Source of the DNA: Chloroflexota bacterium
Lineage (GTDB): Bacteria; Chloroflexota; UBA6077; FW602-bin22
NCBI GenBank assembly: GCA_016875715.1
Contig: VGOZ01000002.1
Span: 1-64,000, forward strand
Direction of reading: 5' to 3'
DNA length: 64,000 nt
This document shows, piece after piece, positions 2,317 to 46,194 of this stretch. The position numbers were made by a program, and so were the translations under genes. Within the stretch, counting starts at the first letter, position 1. Each line of letters begins with the position of its first letter. A model generated the notes under the pieces. The model saw nothing but the letters and a program-made list of their open reading frames with translations, was not told where the DNA came from and searched no databases.

Positions 2317-3102
2317 GTGAACCTCGAGGTGGGCTTCGACCCGAACTTTGTCGCGCTGGGACCGCTGGTGCTCGGGTGGCACGGCCTGTTCACGGCGCTG
2401 GCGGTCGCGCTGGCGGTGTGGCTGGCGCTCCGCCGAGCCGCGGCGTACGGATTACCGACCGACAAGGTCGGCGATCTCGCGGTCTGGAGCGTTCTGGGGG
2501 GTATGGTCGGCGCGCGGATCTTCCACGTGCTCGATCACTGGGATCAGTACGCGGCGCGGCCCCTGGAGATCTTCGCGGTCTGGCAGGGGGGCATCGCCGT
2601 CTACGGCGCGTTCATCGGCGGCGTCGTCACCGGACTCTTCCTCTGCCAGCGGATGGGTCTGCCGAAATGGACGATGCTCGATGTCGCCGCCCCAGCGATG
2701 CTCGTCGGCCAGGCGATCGGTCGACTCGGTTGCCTGAGCAATGGCGATGCGTGGGGCGGGCCGTGCGATGGCGCGGGGGTGCTCTGCCTCATCTACTCCC
2801 ACCCGAACGCGCTCCTGCCGAACGATCTGCGCGGCGTTCCCACCCACCCGTATCCGCTCTACGAGATGATCGCGGTGGGGTTCACGCTGGCGGTCATCTG
2901 GTTCGCGCGGCGTCGACTCACCGCGCCGGGGCTGATCTTCGTCGTCGCCGGACTTGGCTACGCGATCACCCGGTTCACGCTCACCGTGTACCGGCAGGAG
3001 GCGCAAATGGCGTTCGGCCTCCAGGAAGCACAACTCATTGCGATCGCCACCGCGCTGCTCATCCTCGGCGGGCGCTTCCTGCTGTTCCGCCCCCGGGCCT
3101 GA
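2317..3102 (+). CDS. lgt: Prolipoprotein diacylglyceryl transferase
   Basis: Transfers diacylglycerol from phosphatidylglycerol to the lipobox Cys of prolipoproteins, the first step of lipoprotein maturation, in the cytoplasmic membrane. At 261 residues with about seven membrane segments it has the normal family length. It contains VWQGGIAVYGAFIGG, the signature region GQAIGRLGCLSNGDAWG with the catalytic Arg, and HPYPLYE. The GTG start is the only good start before the conserved N-terminus. Several lipoprotein substrates lie nearby (multicopper oxidase, solute-binding protein, VanW protein, the nirK-linked lipoprotein). A weak TATGCT -10-like element sits at 2275-2280. Confidence 0.95.
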   Translation: MNLEVGFDPNFVALGPLVLGWHGLFTALAVALAVWLALRRAAAYGLPTDKVGDLAVWSVLGGMVGARIFHVLDHWDQYAARPLEIFAVWQGGIAVYGAFIGGVVTGLFLCQRMGLPKWTMLDVAAPAMLVGQAIGRLGCLSNGDAWGGPCDGAGVLCLIYSHPNALLPNDLRGVPTHPYPLYEMIAVGFTLAVIWFARRRLTAPGLIFVVAGLGYAITRFTLTVYRQEAQMAFGLQEAQLIAIATALLILGGRFLLFRPRA

Positions 3103-3232
3103 TCGGGCCCCGCCGATGCTCGGCCCGCACGACGGCCGGTCCGAAGCCGCTGTCGAGGTTGCCCGATCCCCGTGAGAACGCGCCGCCGGACCTGATTCAG
3201 CGCGCGAATCCCGTGCATGCTCGTGTGCGCGC

Positions 3233-3487
3233 GTGCGGCGCACGACGATCACCCTCCCTGAAACCCTGGTGGAGCGTTTCCAGCGCGAGGCCGATCGGCG
3301 CAGGACGTCGCTCTTGCACGCTGTTCGCGAGACGCTGGAGTCGCGTTTCGGGGGACCGACGCCTCCATCGTCACCCGCGCCCAGCGTCCTGAACACACGG
3401 ACGATCGCGACGCTCGACCATCGTCACGTCTCGGTGGTGCGGCCTCTGCAAGGCGATCGTTTCATTCTCCTGCCTGAGCCGCCCTGA
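3233..3487 (+). CDS. VapB-VapC deletion chimera (RHH antitoxin head, PIN toxin tail)
   Basis: The 84-residue product starts with a ribbon-helix-helix motif (TTITLPETLVERFQREA, then SLLHAVRETLESRF), as in CopG/VapB antitoxins. It ends with IATLDHRHVSVVRP and FILLPE, which is the ending of PIN-domain VapC toxins. The roughly 100 residues holding the PIN acidic site are missing. The simplest reading is an internal in-frame deletion that removed the antitoxin end and most of the toxin and joined the two genes. The product could still bind DNA through its head but cannot be an active nuclease. The GTG start is chosen because the RHH begins at once after it. Confidence 0.65.
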   Translation: MRRTTITLPETLVERFQREADRRRTSLLHAVRETLESRFGGPTPPSSPAPSVLNTRTIATLDHRHVSVVRPLQGDRFILLPEPP

Positions 3488-3539: not shown

Positions 3540-4187
3540 ATGCCAGGGACCCGCGTGCTGTTCGAGAACGATCGGATCAAGGTGTGGGACATGATCGTGC
3601 CGCCCGATGAGGCGATGCCGGCGCACACCCACACCTTGCCCTACTTCTACACCGTCGTCGAACCGGGGGCGATGCGCTTCGGTGAGAGTTCCTGGCGCCC
3701 GCGCGATGGCGAGACTGCCTTCTATGCCATCGAGGCCGGTCAGCCGAAGCACGATCCGCGAATGGTGAACGAAGGGGCCACCCGCCACCGCGAGATCGTC
3801 GTCGAACTGAAGCTACGCCCGGTCAACGGGTACGACCACTCCAACGTCCACACGGGCGCCCGCCGCGACGGCACGACACCGCCCTCTGACGCTGTGGGAA
3901 CCCATCGCCTGTTCGAGAACGACCGCGTGCGGGTGTGGGACCTGCGCCTGAAGCCGGGGGACCGCCTCGGCCGCCACCTCCACAAGGTCGACAACTTCTT
4001 CGTCATGCTCTCGGGCGGCCTCATCCGGTTCGAGAACCCGGACGACTCCACCGACTTCAAGGACGTGCAGTTCGTCGACGACCGGGTGACCTTCGTCAAC
4101 GTGCCGCCGGAGGGGAAGATCGACAACCGGCTCGAGAACATCGGAACGAAGGCGCACCGAAACCTGCTCATCGAACTCCTGGCCTGA
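3540..4187 (+). CDS. Tandem-duplicated cupin (bicupin)
   Basis: Two cupin repeats of about 100 residues. The first begins RVLFENDRIKVWDM and the second HRLFENDRVRVWDL, so the gene arose by internal duplication. The first repeat carries PAHTHTLPYFYTV and the second GRHLHKVDNFFVM, each a cupin motif 1 with possible metal-binding His residues. Many such proteins bind small ligands or act as dioxygenase-like or sensor proteins; no specific function can be assigned. A Shine-Dalgarno AGGAGG lies just before the ATG. Appears to stand alone. Confidence 0.7.
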   Translation: MPGTRVLFENDRIKVWDMIVPPDEAMPAHTHTLPYFYTVVEPGAMRFGESSWRPRDGETAFYAIEAGQPKHDPRMVNEGATRHREIVVELKLRPVNGYDHSNVHTGARRDGTTPPSDAVGTHRLFENDRVRVWDLRLKPGDRLGRHLHKVDNFFVMLSGGLIRFENPDDSTDFKDVQFVDDRVTFVNVPPEGKIDNRLENIGTKAHRNLLIELLA

Positions 4188-4530: not shown

Positions 4531-4653
4531 CTACTTCTCGACGATGAGCACCGTCACCATGCCGAACATCCCGGTGGGTGTCTCGGCGTGGGAGAGGATG
4601 TGGCAGTGGAATGCCCAGATGCCCGTTTCATCCGGTTCGACGATCGCGTTTCA
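4531..4653 (-). pseudogene. Orphaned 3' end of the multicopper oxidase with its type 1 copper site
   Basis: In the same frame as the oxidase at 4651-5676, beyond its TGA at 4651-4653, 39 codons continue to a TAG at 4531. They encode NAIVEPDETGIWAFHCHILS, then HAETPTGMFGMVTVLIVEK. HCHxxxH and the following Met are the conserved type 1 and trinuclear copper ligands that end this family. Relatives have Trp (or Tyr) where the TGA stands (GERW), so a TGG to TGA change is the likely event. TGA is a normal stop elsewhere in the window (lgt ends with it). Confidence 0.75.
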
Positions 4654-5676
4654 TCGCTCGCCGGGGGCGATATTCAGCGTGTCGCACAGCCATGGCGGCT
4701 GCGGATAGCCGTCCTTGGCGATGACCTGCTGCGGGAACCCGTGCAGGTGCATCGGATGAATCATCGACCCCTCGTTCATGTACCGGATCAGGATCTTCTC
4801 GCCGACCTTCGCGACCAGCGGCTGGGTCGCCGGGAAACTCTTGCCATTCAGGGTGAAGCCGTGGGGCCCGTCGTTGAGGATCATCAGGTGCTCGCGATCG
4901 ACCTTCGGCATCAGGGCGGGATCCTTCGGCAGCACGATGAACGCGCCGAGGAGGCCGCTCGGGACCTGGACCGAGGAGTTGTGGTGCGAGTGGTACATGT
5001 GGCTGCCGAAGAGCCTTGCGACGAACTCGTAGGTGAAGGTGTCACCCGGCTTGATCGGCGGCTGGGTGATGAAGGGAACCCCGTCCATCTTGTTCGGCGT
5101 TCGCTGGCCGTGGAAGTGGATCGCGGTCGACTCGTCCAGCTCGTTCTTGATGATGACGCGGACGAGGTCGCCCTCGGTGACGCGGATCTCCGGACCAGGG
5201 ACGGTGCCGTTGTAGGCCATGGCGTCGACGCTCTTGCCCGCCTCGATCTCCCACTTCACCTTCTTCGCGGTGATCTCGAAGACCTTGGCGTTGCCGTCCA
5301 TCCGGAAGGGGGGTCGCCCGTTCCCCTGCGCGGCGGTCTTCTGGGGGAACTTCTTGATGCCATCTTCGTGGTGCTTGTCCATCTCGTTCGCTTTGGTGAG
5401 CGCCGAGATCGCCGCGCCTCCGGCGGTGGGGGTATGGGCGGTCGCGGCGTGGGTCGGTGCCAGTGCGGCGGCCGGCTTCGCGGCCGCTGGCGCGGGGGCG
5501 ATGGCTGGTGCGATGGGAGCGGCCGGCGGACCCACGTCCTGCACCGCCGGCAGGCGCGAGCCCCTCCGAGTTCTGGCCGGCCCGGTGACGCAGCCAGACG
5601 CGACCGCGCCGGTGGTCAGTCCCAGGAGCGACACGAGCGCACGGCGCGAGACAAGATGGCGAAGACCCATGACCAT
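4651..5676 (-). CDS. Multicopper oxidase lipoprotein truncated by in-frame TGA
   Basis: The 341-residue open frame has a twin-Arg-like signal (SRRALVSLLG) with a lipobox ending at Cys29 (ASGC), then an Ala/Pro-rich linker to about residue 95. A first cupredoxin domain carries HFH (187-189) and HxHH (229-232), and a second carries HPMHLHG (307-313). It stops after APGER, just before the HCHxxxH type 1 copper segment that remains in frame downstream. As read it lacks type 1 copper and should be inactive. Intact relatives oxidise Cu(I) or organic substrates outside the cytoplasm. A GGAGGAGG ribosome site touches the first ATG; a second ATG at 5670 is also possible. An upstream element is shared with nirK. 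Confidence 0.8.
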   Translation of the reverse strand: MVMGLRHLVSRRALVSLLGLTTGAVASGCVTGPARTRRGSRLPAVQDVGPPAAPIAPAIAPAPAAAKPAAALAPTHAATAHTPTAGGAAISALTKANEMDKHHEDGIKKFPQKTAAQGNGRPPFRMDGNAKVFEITAKKVKWEIEAGKSVDAMAYNGTVPGPEIRVTEGDLVRVIIKNELDESTAIHFHGQRTPNKMDGVPFITQPPIKPGDTFTYEFVARLFGSHMYHSHHNSSVQVPSGLLGAFIVLPKDPALMPKVDREHLMILNDGPHGFTLNGKSFPATQPLVAKVGEKILIRYMNEGSMIHPMHLHGFPQQVIAKDGYPQPPWLCDTLNIAPGER

Positions 5677-25151: not shown

Positions 25152-25592
25152 TCAGACCGCGACATCCTCAAGGTGCTGCACGCAACTGAACGACGGCGCG
25201 AGGAGGCGGAACATCCGCTCGTCGGCGGTGACGTAGATGGCGCCATCGCGGATCGCCAGCGCGAGGTGGAGCGCCTCCGCGAACGGCCGATCGTGGCGGC
25301 TCGCCAGGAGCAGCGCCTCATCGGCCAGATCCTCGGAAGGCACGAGCGGGGGCAGGATCGCGTGGAGCACCTGGTGAACCTGCTGCGCGTGGTCGGCCGT
25401 CACCTCACCGGCGCGGACCTTGCGGCGGCAGATGCTCCCCAGTTCGGCGACGAGCACGTCCGGTGCACGGAGGGAGAGCGTCTGCGCTGCCCAGGCGTCG
25501 AAGAGGCGCAGCGCCGTCGCGGAGTCGGTCTCGTTGAAACCCCACTTGGCGACGGTCGCCGCGTCGACGACAACCGGGCTATCGGCCGCCAC
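25152..25592 (-). CDS. vapC: VapC-like PIN-domain toxin
   Basis: A 146-residue PIN domain ribonuclease. Acidic residues of the expected active site occur in VVVDAATVAKWGFNE, in LVAELGSICRRKV, and in YVTADERMF near the end. The GTG start at 25592 lies inside the end of the antitoxin gene (14-nt overlap), a normal VapBC layout. VapC enzymes cleave tRNA or rRNA when freed from VapB. Length and motifs are complete, so this pair is probably functional, unlike the chimera at 3.2 kb. Confidence 0.75.
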   Translation of the reverse strand: MAADSPVVVDAATVAKWGFNETDSATALRLFDAWAAQTLSLRAPDVLVAELGSICRRKVRAGEVTADHAQQVHQVLHAILPPLVPSEDLADEALLLASRHDRPFAEALHLALAIRDGAIYVTADERMFRLLAPSFSCVQHLEDVAV

Positions 25593-25830
25593 GCTCGGAC
25601 CAGAGGAGCGACGCGCTATCGGTCGTCGCCTGGCCGGGCGCGACGCGCATGCGCAGCGCATCGAGCCGCCTCCGCTGTCGGCCGAGTTGCGCCGCACGCC
25701 GGGTCACCGCGGCGTGCTCGTCCAGTACGCTCACCAGATGCCGGTTGACGCTCCTCCCCTGGTGGTCGGCCTCGCCCCGCAGCGCGTCCAGCGTCGTTTC
25801 CGACAGACCCCGAATCGTCAGTACCGCCAT
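25579..25830 (-). CDS. vapB: VapB/FitA-like ribbon-helix-helix antitoxin
   Basis: An 83-residue protein starting MAVLTIRGLSETTLDALRGE, then NRHLVSVLDEHA, the ribbon-helix-helix of FitA-type antitoxins. The basic C-terminal part (AAQLGRQRRRLDALRMRV) is suited to block the toxin. It overlaps the downstream toxin gene. A promoter-like pair lies upstream at 25858-25887, with a short palindrome between the hexamers that suits autoregulation. Confidence 0.75.
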   Translation of the reverse strand: MAVLTIRGLSETTLDALRGEADHQGRSVNRHLVSVLDEHAAVTRRAAQLGRQRRRLDALRMRVAPGQATTDSASLLWSERGGR

Positions 25831-45357: not shown

Positions 45358-46194
45358 TCAGCCAGAACGCGCGAGAAGTCCGGCCAGCGTTCCGCCGAGG
45401 ATCTTCGATCGGTCTTCCTCCGACAGGTGACGCGCCCCCTCGCGGAACGCCTCCAGGCTCTGACGATAGGTCATCGACCGGCGGACGACCGGATAGTCGG
45501 ATCCCCAGCAGAGCCGGTCCGGCCCGTACGCGTCGACGATCGAGCGGAGGAGCGCGAGACAATCCGGATAGGGGAAGCCCCACGCCCGCTCGGAGGCGTA
45601 GTGGAAGCCGGAGATCTTCAGCCAGATGTTGGGGATCGCGGCCGAGCCCAGCACCGCCGCGATGGTGTCGGGTTGCCCGACCCTCGCCGAGCCCATGTGG
45701 TGGCAAAGGAAGGTGAGTTCCGGGAAGTCGCTCGCCAGCCGTCGGAGCATCGGTTGGAGGTGAGCGGGCAGCGCCAGGCTGACGATCTGGCGGTGCGCCC
45801 TAGCGACCGAGAAGAAGGATCGCGCTTCCGGTCCGAGATACCAGGCACCATCGTCCTCGGCTCGTATGTAGTGGGTGAATCCCTTCAGGCTGTAGCGCGC
45901 GATCGCCGACTCCAGGCGGTGTGCGGCGCCGGGTGCCTGGTAGGTCGGCCACCAGAAGCAATCGACATCGGCGAACTGGTCCAGGCGTGCGCCGTGAACG
46001 CGCACGCATGCGTGGCCGTAGTCGTTGTTCTCCGGGTTGTGATCGATGCGCGCGCACACGAGTACCGCGCGGTCGACGCCGCATCGATCCATCTCCCACA
46101 GGAGTTGCTCGACACGACCGCGACTCTCCGGATCGGGGACGGGCGGCTCGTAGGGCCAGCGCCGCCAGGCGTGGCAGTGAGAGTCGACGATCAC
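45358..46194 (-). CDS. Amidohydrolase 2-family TIM-barrel metal hydrolase
   Basis: A 278-residue protein. The metal-binding HxH is VDSHCHAWR at the start. Further conserved parts are FLCHHMGSARVG, WLKISGFHYASE and CWGSDYPVVRRS with the catalytic Asp. Relatives include ACMSD-like decarboxylases and lactonases; the reaction is unknown. Its GTG start overlaps the stop of the DUF2277 gene by four bases (GTGA), and the lipoprotein gene follows. Confidence 0.8.
   Translation of the reverse strand: MIVDSHCHAWRRWPYEPPVPDPESRGRVEQLLWEMDRCGVDRAVLVCARIDHNPENNDYGHACVRVHGARLDQFADVDCFWWPTYQAPGAAHRLESAIARYSLKGFTHYIRAEDDGAWYLGPEARSFFSVARAHRQIVSLALPAHLQPMLRRLASDFPELTFLCHHMGSARVGQPDTIAAVLGSAAIPNIWLKISGFHYASERAWGFPYPDCLALLRSIVDAYGPDRLCWGSDYPVVRRSMTYRQSLEAFREGARHLSEEDRSKILGGTLAGLLARSG

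Follow-up and report, generated by a model that had tools for sequence, protein, structure and literature searches.

A small open reading frame that is probably the remnant of a vapBC toxin-antitoxin operon in a Chloroflexota genome

The open reading frame at positions 3233–3487 (+ strand) of the window, i.e. of the whole 64-kb stretch of DNA analysed here, is very probably a degenerate vapBC operon, an ordinary genomic scar (we put the probability at about 0.88). The first-pass annotation had described it as a collapsed VapB-VapC operon, and this is borne out, as both ends align to intact relatives. The open reading frame exists as annotated: it starts with GTG, runs for 84 codons and ends at a TGA. 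From its sequence, the remnant is most likely weakly expressed or silent and without function.

Genomic setting

The open reading frame lies between lgt (2317–3102, +) and a cupin gene (3540–4187, +), both of which have intact frames. Its third-position GC is 0.75, compared with 0.87–0.89 in the neighbouring genes. This fits foreign or non-coding sequence, but is proof of neither. The genome has a GC content of 68%, where stop codons are rare, and an open frame of 84 codons thus needs no selection. Of arbitrary frames in the window, 83% are stop-free at 13 codons and 39% at 84 codons.

Another open reading frame nearby, a multicopper oxidase at 4651–5676 (−) that continues to about 4528, displays an in-frame TGA (...NIAPGER, stop, NAIVEPDETGIWAFHCHILSHAE...) just before the C-terminal copper-binding HCH motif, and is open afterwards. 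Either the gene is broken or the sequence contains an error here.

The antitoxin head

Profile models were built from 12 intact antitoxins (VapB) and 21 toxins (VapC). In a six-frame scan of the 64-kb window, the 3233–3487 open reading frame was the sole significant match of either model. Residues 1–46 score 49.8 bits with the VapB model (model positions 1–46 of 78); the top score of 20,000 shuffles of the head is 12.1 bits. Pfam RHH_5 (E-value = 1.7e-4) and RHH_1 (E-value = 1.1e-3) also match the head, both slightly below their curated cut-offs. The ribbon-helix-helix (RHH) head has no stop codon or visible frame disruption. From these matches and the identity to a relative VapB, the vapB remnant is placed at 3233–3355 (+), approximately residues 1–41.

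The C-terminal half of VapB is the part expected to bind the toxin. This segment is gone: the model match stops at position 46 of 78, and vapC-derived DNA is present from about position 3355. Neutralisation of another VapC by the remnant is therefore unlikely, as far as can be predicted from the missing segment. The most to be expected of the RHH head is that, in principle, it may still be able to fold, to form dimers and to bind the degraded box upstream of it.

The toxin remnant and its lesions

The tail of the open reading frame (residues 53–82) scores 33.2 bits with the VapC model, at model positions 107–136 of 136. The best of 20,000 tail shuffles reached 7.6 bits, which rules out a chance similarity, and the PIN-like tail on which the first-pass reading depended is thus present. 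Pfam PIN gave no match in the open reading frame. The in-frame vapC remnant, a PIN C-terminus (TRTIATLDHRHVSVVRPLQGDRFILLPE) followed by the stop codon, is at 3389–3487 (+) and also has an alignment-profile match within its own genome (E-value = 1.4e-6).

The toxin-derived DNA begins earlier than 3389, at about 3355; alignments with most of the close vapC 3′ ends start at about 3348–3358. Nucleotide positions 3322–3402 translated in another frame give CSRDAGVAFRGTDASIVTRAQRPEHTD, which matches VapC positions 91–108, directly before the 107–136 of the tail. This out-of-frame piece scores 6.9 bits with the VapC model. Among 20,000 shuffles of it none that started at positions 80–92 exceeded 5.1 bits, and the best score anywhere was 10.4 bits. 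At 3355–3393 (+) the DNA reads GTDASIVTRAQR in frame 3235 and PTPPSSPAPSVL in the frame of the open reading frame, where it had the appearance of a linker. The “linker” PTPPSSPAPSV is vapC DNA in the wrong frame (its first dozen or so codons, with the GTDASIV helix). The Asp of GTDAS is invariant in the alignment used (A1; D97 of its first sequence), and we take it to be a catalytic residue of the PIN active site.

The vapC DNA alignments extend toward the stop codon. Pairwise alignments to L088, L020, L084, L036, L037 and other relatives place a net one-base frame change at 3387–3402 (+), and this is the only gap with respect to L088 and L020. The frame is regained solely for the last ~30 toxin residues. 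The first-pass description of an RHH head joined in frame to the last strand of a PIN toxin is therefore correct for the two halves, both of which are real by their model scores, but this is not one clean fusion: the toxin DNA runs out of frame from about 3355 and then changes frame.

A second difference is one of length. The vapB start and the Asp codon are 125 nt apart in the window, versus 520 (L005), 526 (L018) and 529 nt (L015) in intact pairs, so that ~395–404 nt are missing from the window copy. The junction, as judged from where the vapB-like DNA ends and the vapC-like DNA starts, would be in a G-rich stretch at 3346–3358 (+). Together these comparisons point to at least two lesions, the loss of ~395–404 nt and an indel. 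A full-length pair with a simple frame shift is ruled out by the absent nucleotides. Nor is there a separate PIN toxin gene with the conserved acidic residues, as the N-terminal Asp and the GTDAS Asp are absent or out of frame. With at most one PIN acidic residue in frame, the toxin part cannot be a nuclease.

Intact relatives

The closest of the relatives compared (G001:C17, a genome of the same family) has an intact pair (L005/L007), with an 82-aa VapB at 45743 and VapC just 3′ of it, aligned up to 46382. This VapB matches the head of the window copy at 52% (54% identity over the head), and the end of this VapC matches the tail at 45%. Gene order, strand, the N-terminal RHH, the VapC C-terminus ATLDxRHxSVVR and a related upstream box are shared; the window copy, however, lacks the C-terminal half of VapB and the first two thirds of VapC, and has the frame change. 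The neighbours of the G001:C17 pair, named from their translations, are an ABC transporter on one side and a sugar-binding protein on the other; lgt is not adjacent to it. There are many more intact pairs in the class and the phylum.

The search for an intact pair among relatives, proposed with the first-pass annotation, was thus successful in that a pair with both ends was found, but at a different locus. The best lgt relatives have no cupin gene and no VapB or VapC within the flanks compared. As no parent was found at the same locus, we infer the parental sequence and the exact breakpoints. A search of plasmids gave no DNA match to the remnant. Nor were the head and tail found together in a second genome of the family, the order (13), the class (29), 400 genomes of the phylum or the GTDB r220 contigs; the 84-residue protein is not a conserved normal gene in these.

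The upstream box

Many intact relatives display a TATGCT-like box shortly 5′ of the start codon. In L005 it is tatgctagtatgcgcgtATG (TATGCTAGTATGCGCG just before the vapB start), and its window counterpart is catgctcgtgtgcgcgcGTG at 3216–3231 (+). The two differ at 3 of 16 positions, one of which is the first T of TATGCT. With the L005 pattern and up to 3 mismatches, 3216–3231 is the sole match in the window (0.09 expected). From the upstream regions of relatives, this sequence (CATGCTCGTGTGCGCG) is interpreted as a putative promoter/operator-like box of the ancestral vapBC operon, one that appears to have drifted. Other operators for the head were looked for in the whole genome, and no match closer than 3 mismatches was present; there were 8 three-mismatch matches for the L005 pattern versus 20 for a reversed control.

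In the intact Chloroflexota/Actinobacteria pairs L025, L030, L035, L038 and L090, a near-palindromic box, ggTATGCTnnCATAcc, ends at the vapB start codon. The −10-like TATGCT is so near the vapB start in these pairs that the mRNA may be leaderless.

The pair at 25.6 kb

A FitAB-like pair at 25152–25830 (−) resembles the ancestral form of the remnant in having an RHH antitoxin and, after it, a PIN toxin. It is apparently intact, and its toxin has the third acidic motif FAEALHLALA, not the more usual Asp form. It had been suggested that the remnant may repress this pair or compete with its antitoxin. The antitoxin of the pair is a FitA-like RHH (PF22513), unlike the RHH_1/RHH_5-like head of the remnant, and no family operator box is present upstream of it (L005 pattern, up to 3 mismatches), the only one in the window being that at 3216–3231. 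As neither the RHH family nor the operator matches, the pair is ruled out as a target, and repression of it or competition with it is unsupported.

Probable decay of the operon and alternative explanations

The proposed course of decay has two events. One is a deletion, possibly between short runs of G, of the toxin-binding half of VapB and the initial two thirds of VapC; the other is a separate indel that would have brought the toxin end into the antitoxin frame. Such G runs are plausible deletion sites because the vapB-like part ends in a G run and the vapC part starts in the G-rich LGGTDA stretch.

Besides weak matches, the VapC subfamily has four members in this genome: an intact one (C75), the window remnant, and fragments on C112 and C103. 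The first fragment (G000:C112:6897–7055, L002) is a truncated VapC, C-terminal positions 83–135. The other (G000:C103:7660–7896, L004) has positions 34–85 joined directly to 108–134 and lacks the N-terminus and positions 86–107. A VapC fragment, positions 79–135, is also found in G006:C162. Decay of loci of this subfamily is routine in the genome. In two genomes of the same order, PIN matches in two adjacent pieces (G006:C483:321–691 and G003:C275:11503–11848) are apparently frame-shifted VapC genes.

According to the authors of one study (PMC2701414), the small size of toxin-antitoxin genes makes their pseudogenes and truncated forms difficult to detect. A review treats orphan antitoxins and toxin pseudogenes, e.g. 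Caulobacter ParD with a parE pseudogene and orphan antitoxins in Klebsiella (PMC7354431). The remnant resembles these in that the DNA-binding antitoxin part is kept and the toxin broken; it differs in that its antitoxin has been cut short as well and continues into what is left of the toxin within a single frame.

The head might be a functional orphan RHH repressor that is translated, dimerises and recognises its own operator, possibly along with further ones, with the toxin tail as inert baggage. The complete RHH head (49.8 bits) and the persistence of a family operator-like box just upstream are in keeping with this, and orphan antitoxins are known, with proposed roles that include regulation of other toxin-antitoxin pairs and anti-addiction (PMC7354431). 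However, the box has changed at 3 of its 16 positions, the first T of TATGCT among them, the genome offers no better match to the motif and its eight three-mismatch matches are not above the control (20). The toxin-binding half is missing as well, and there is no conservation in the 400 phylum genomes or the GTDB r220 contigs. A functional repressor is therefore considered unlikely. Even less probable is a more specific version, in which the frame-restoring change was selected and the short, toxin-free RHH protein would still repress its own degraded box or an incoming VapBC of the same subfamily.

An artefact of assembly or sequencing, such that the living genome would lack either the deletion junction or the change of frame, is quite improbable. 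The genome, the sole one of its species compared, is a 171-contig draft (94% completeness, 5.5% contamination), and the apparent premature stop in the nearby multicopper-oxidase frame could be seen as pointing to such errors. Yet lgt and the cupin gene on either side have unbroken frames, and the frame does not change at a long homopolymer. A random misjoin would need to bring together the right two ends of a single operon, properly ordered and on the right strand. That the sequence is a dedicated antitoxin-toxin fusion gene of a new compact type is scarcely credible: the frame is open from the vapB start through the vapC stop, but the toxin sequence that makes up its middle is read in the wrong frame, the PIN catalytic core is absent and no second example is found in the order, the class, the 400 phylum genomes or the GTDB r220 contigs.

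A decayed vapBC operon is of little significance by itself. It is a well-resolved case of the death of a toxin-antitoxin operon, in which the core was deleted, the rest was frame-shifted and a small open reading frame was left. This leftover is probably meaningless, yet annotation software could label it an RHH protein. It also serves as a caution: where a genome is GC-rich, an open reading frame that fuses two gene parts in frame says little in favour of a functional fusion.
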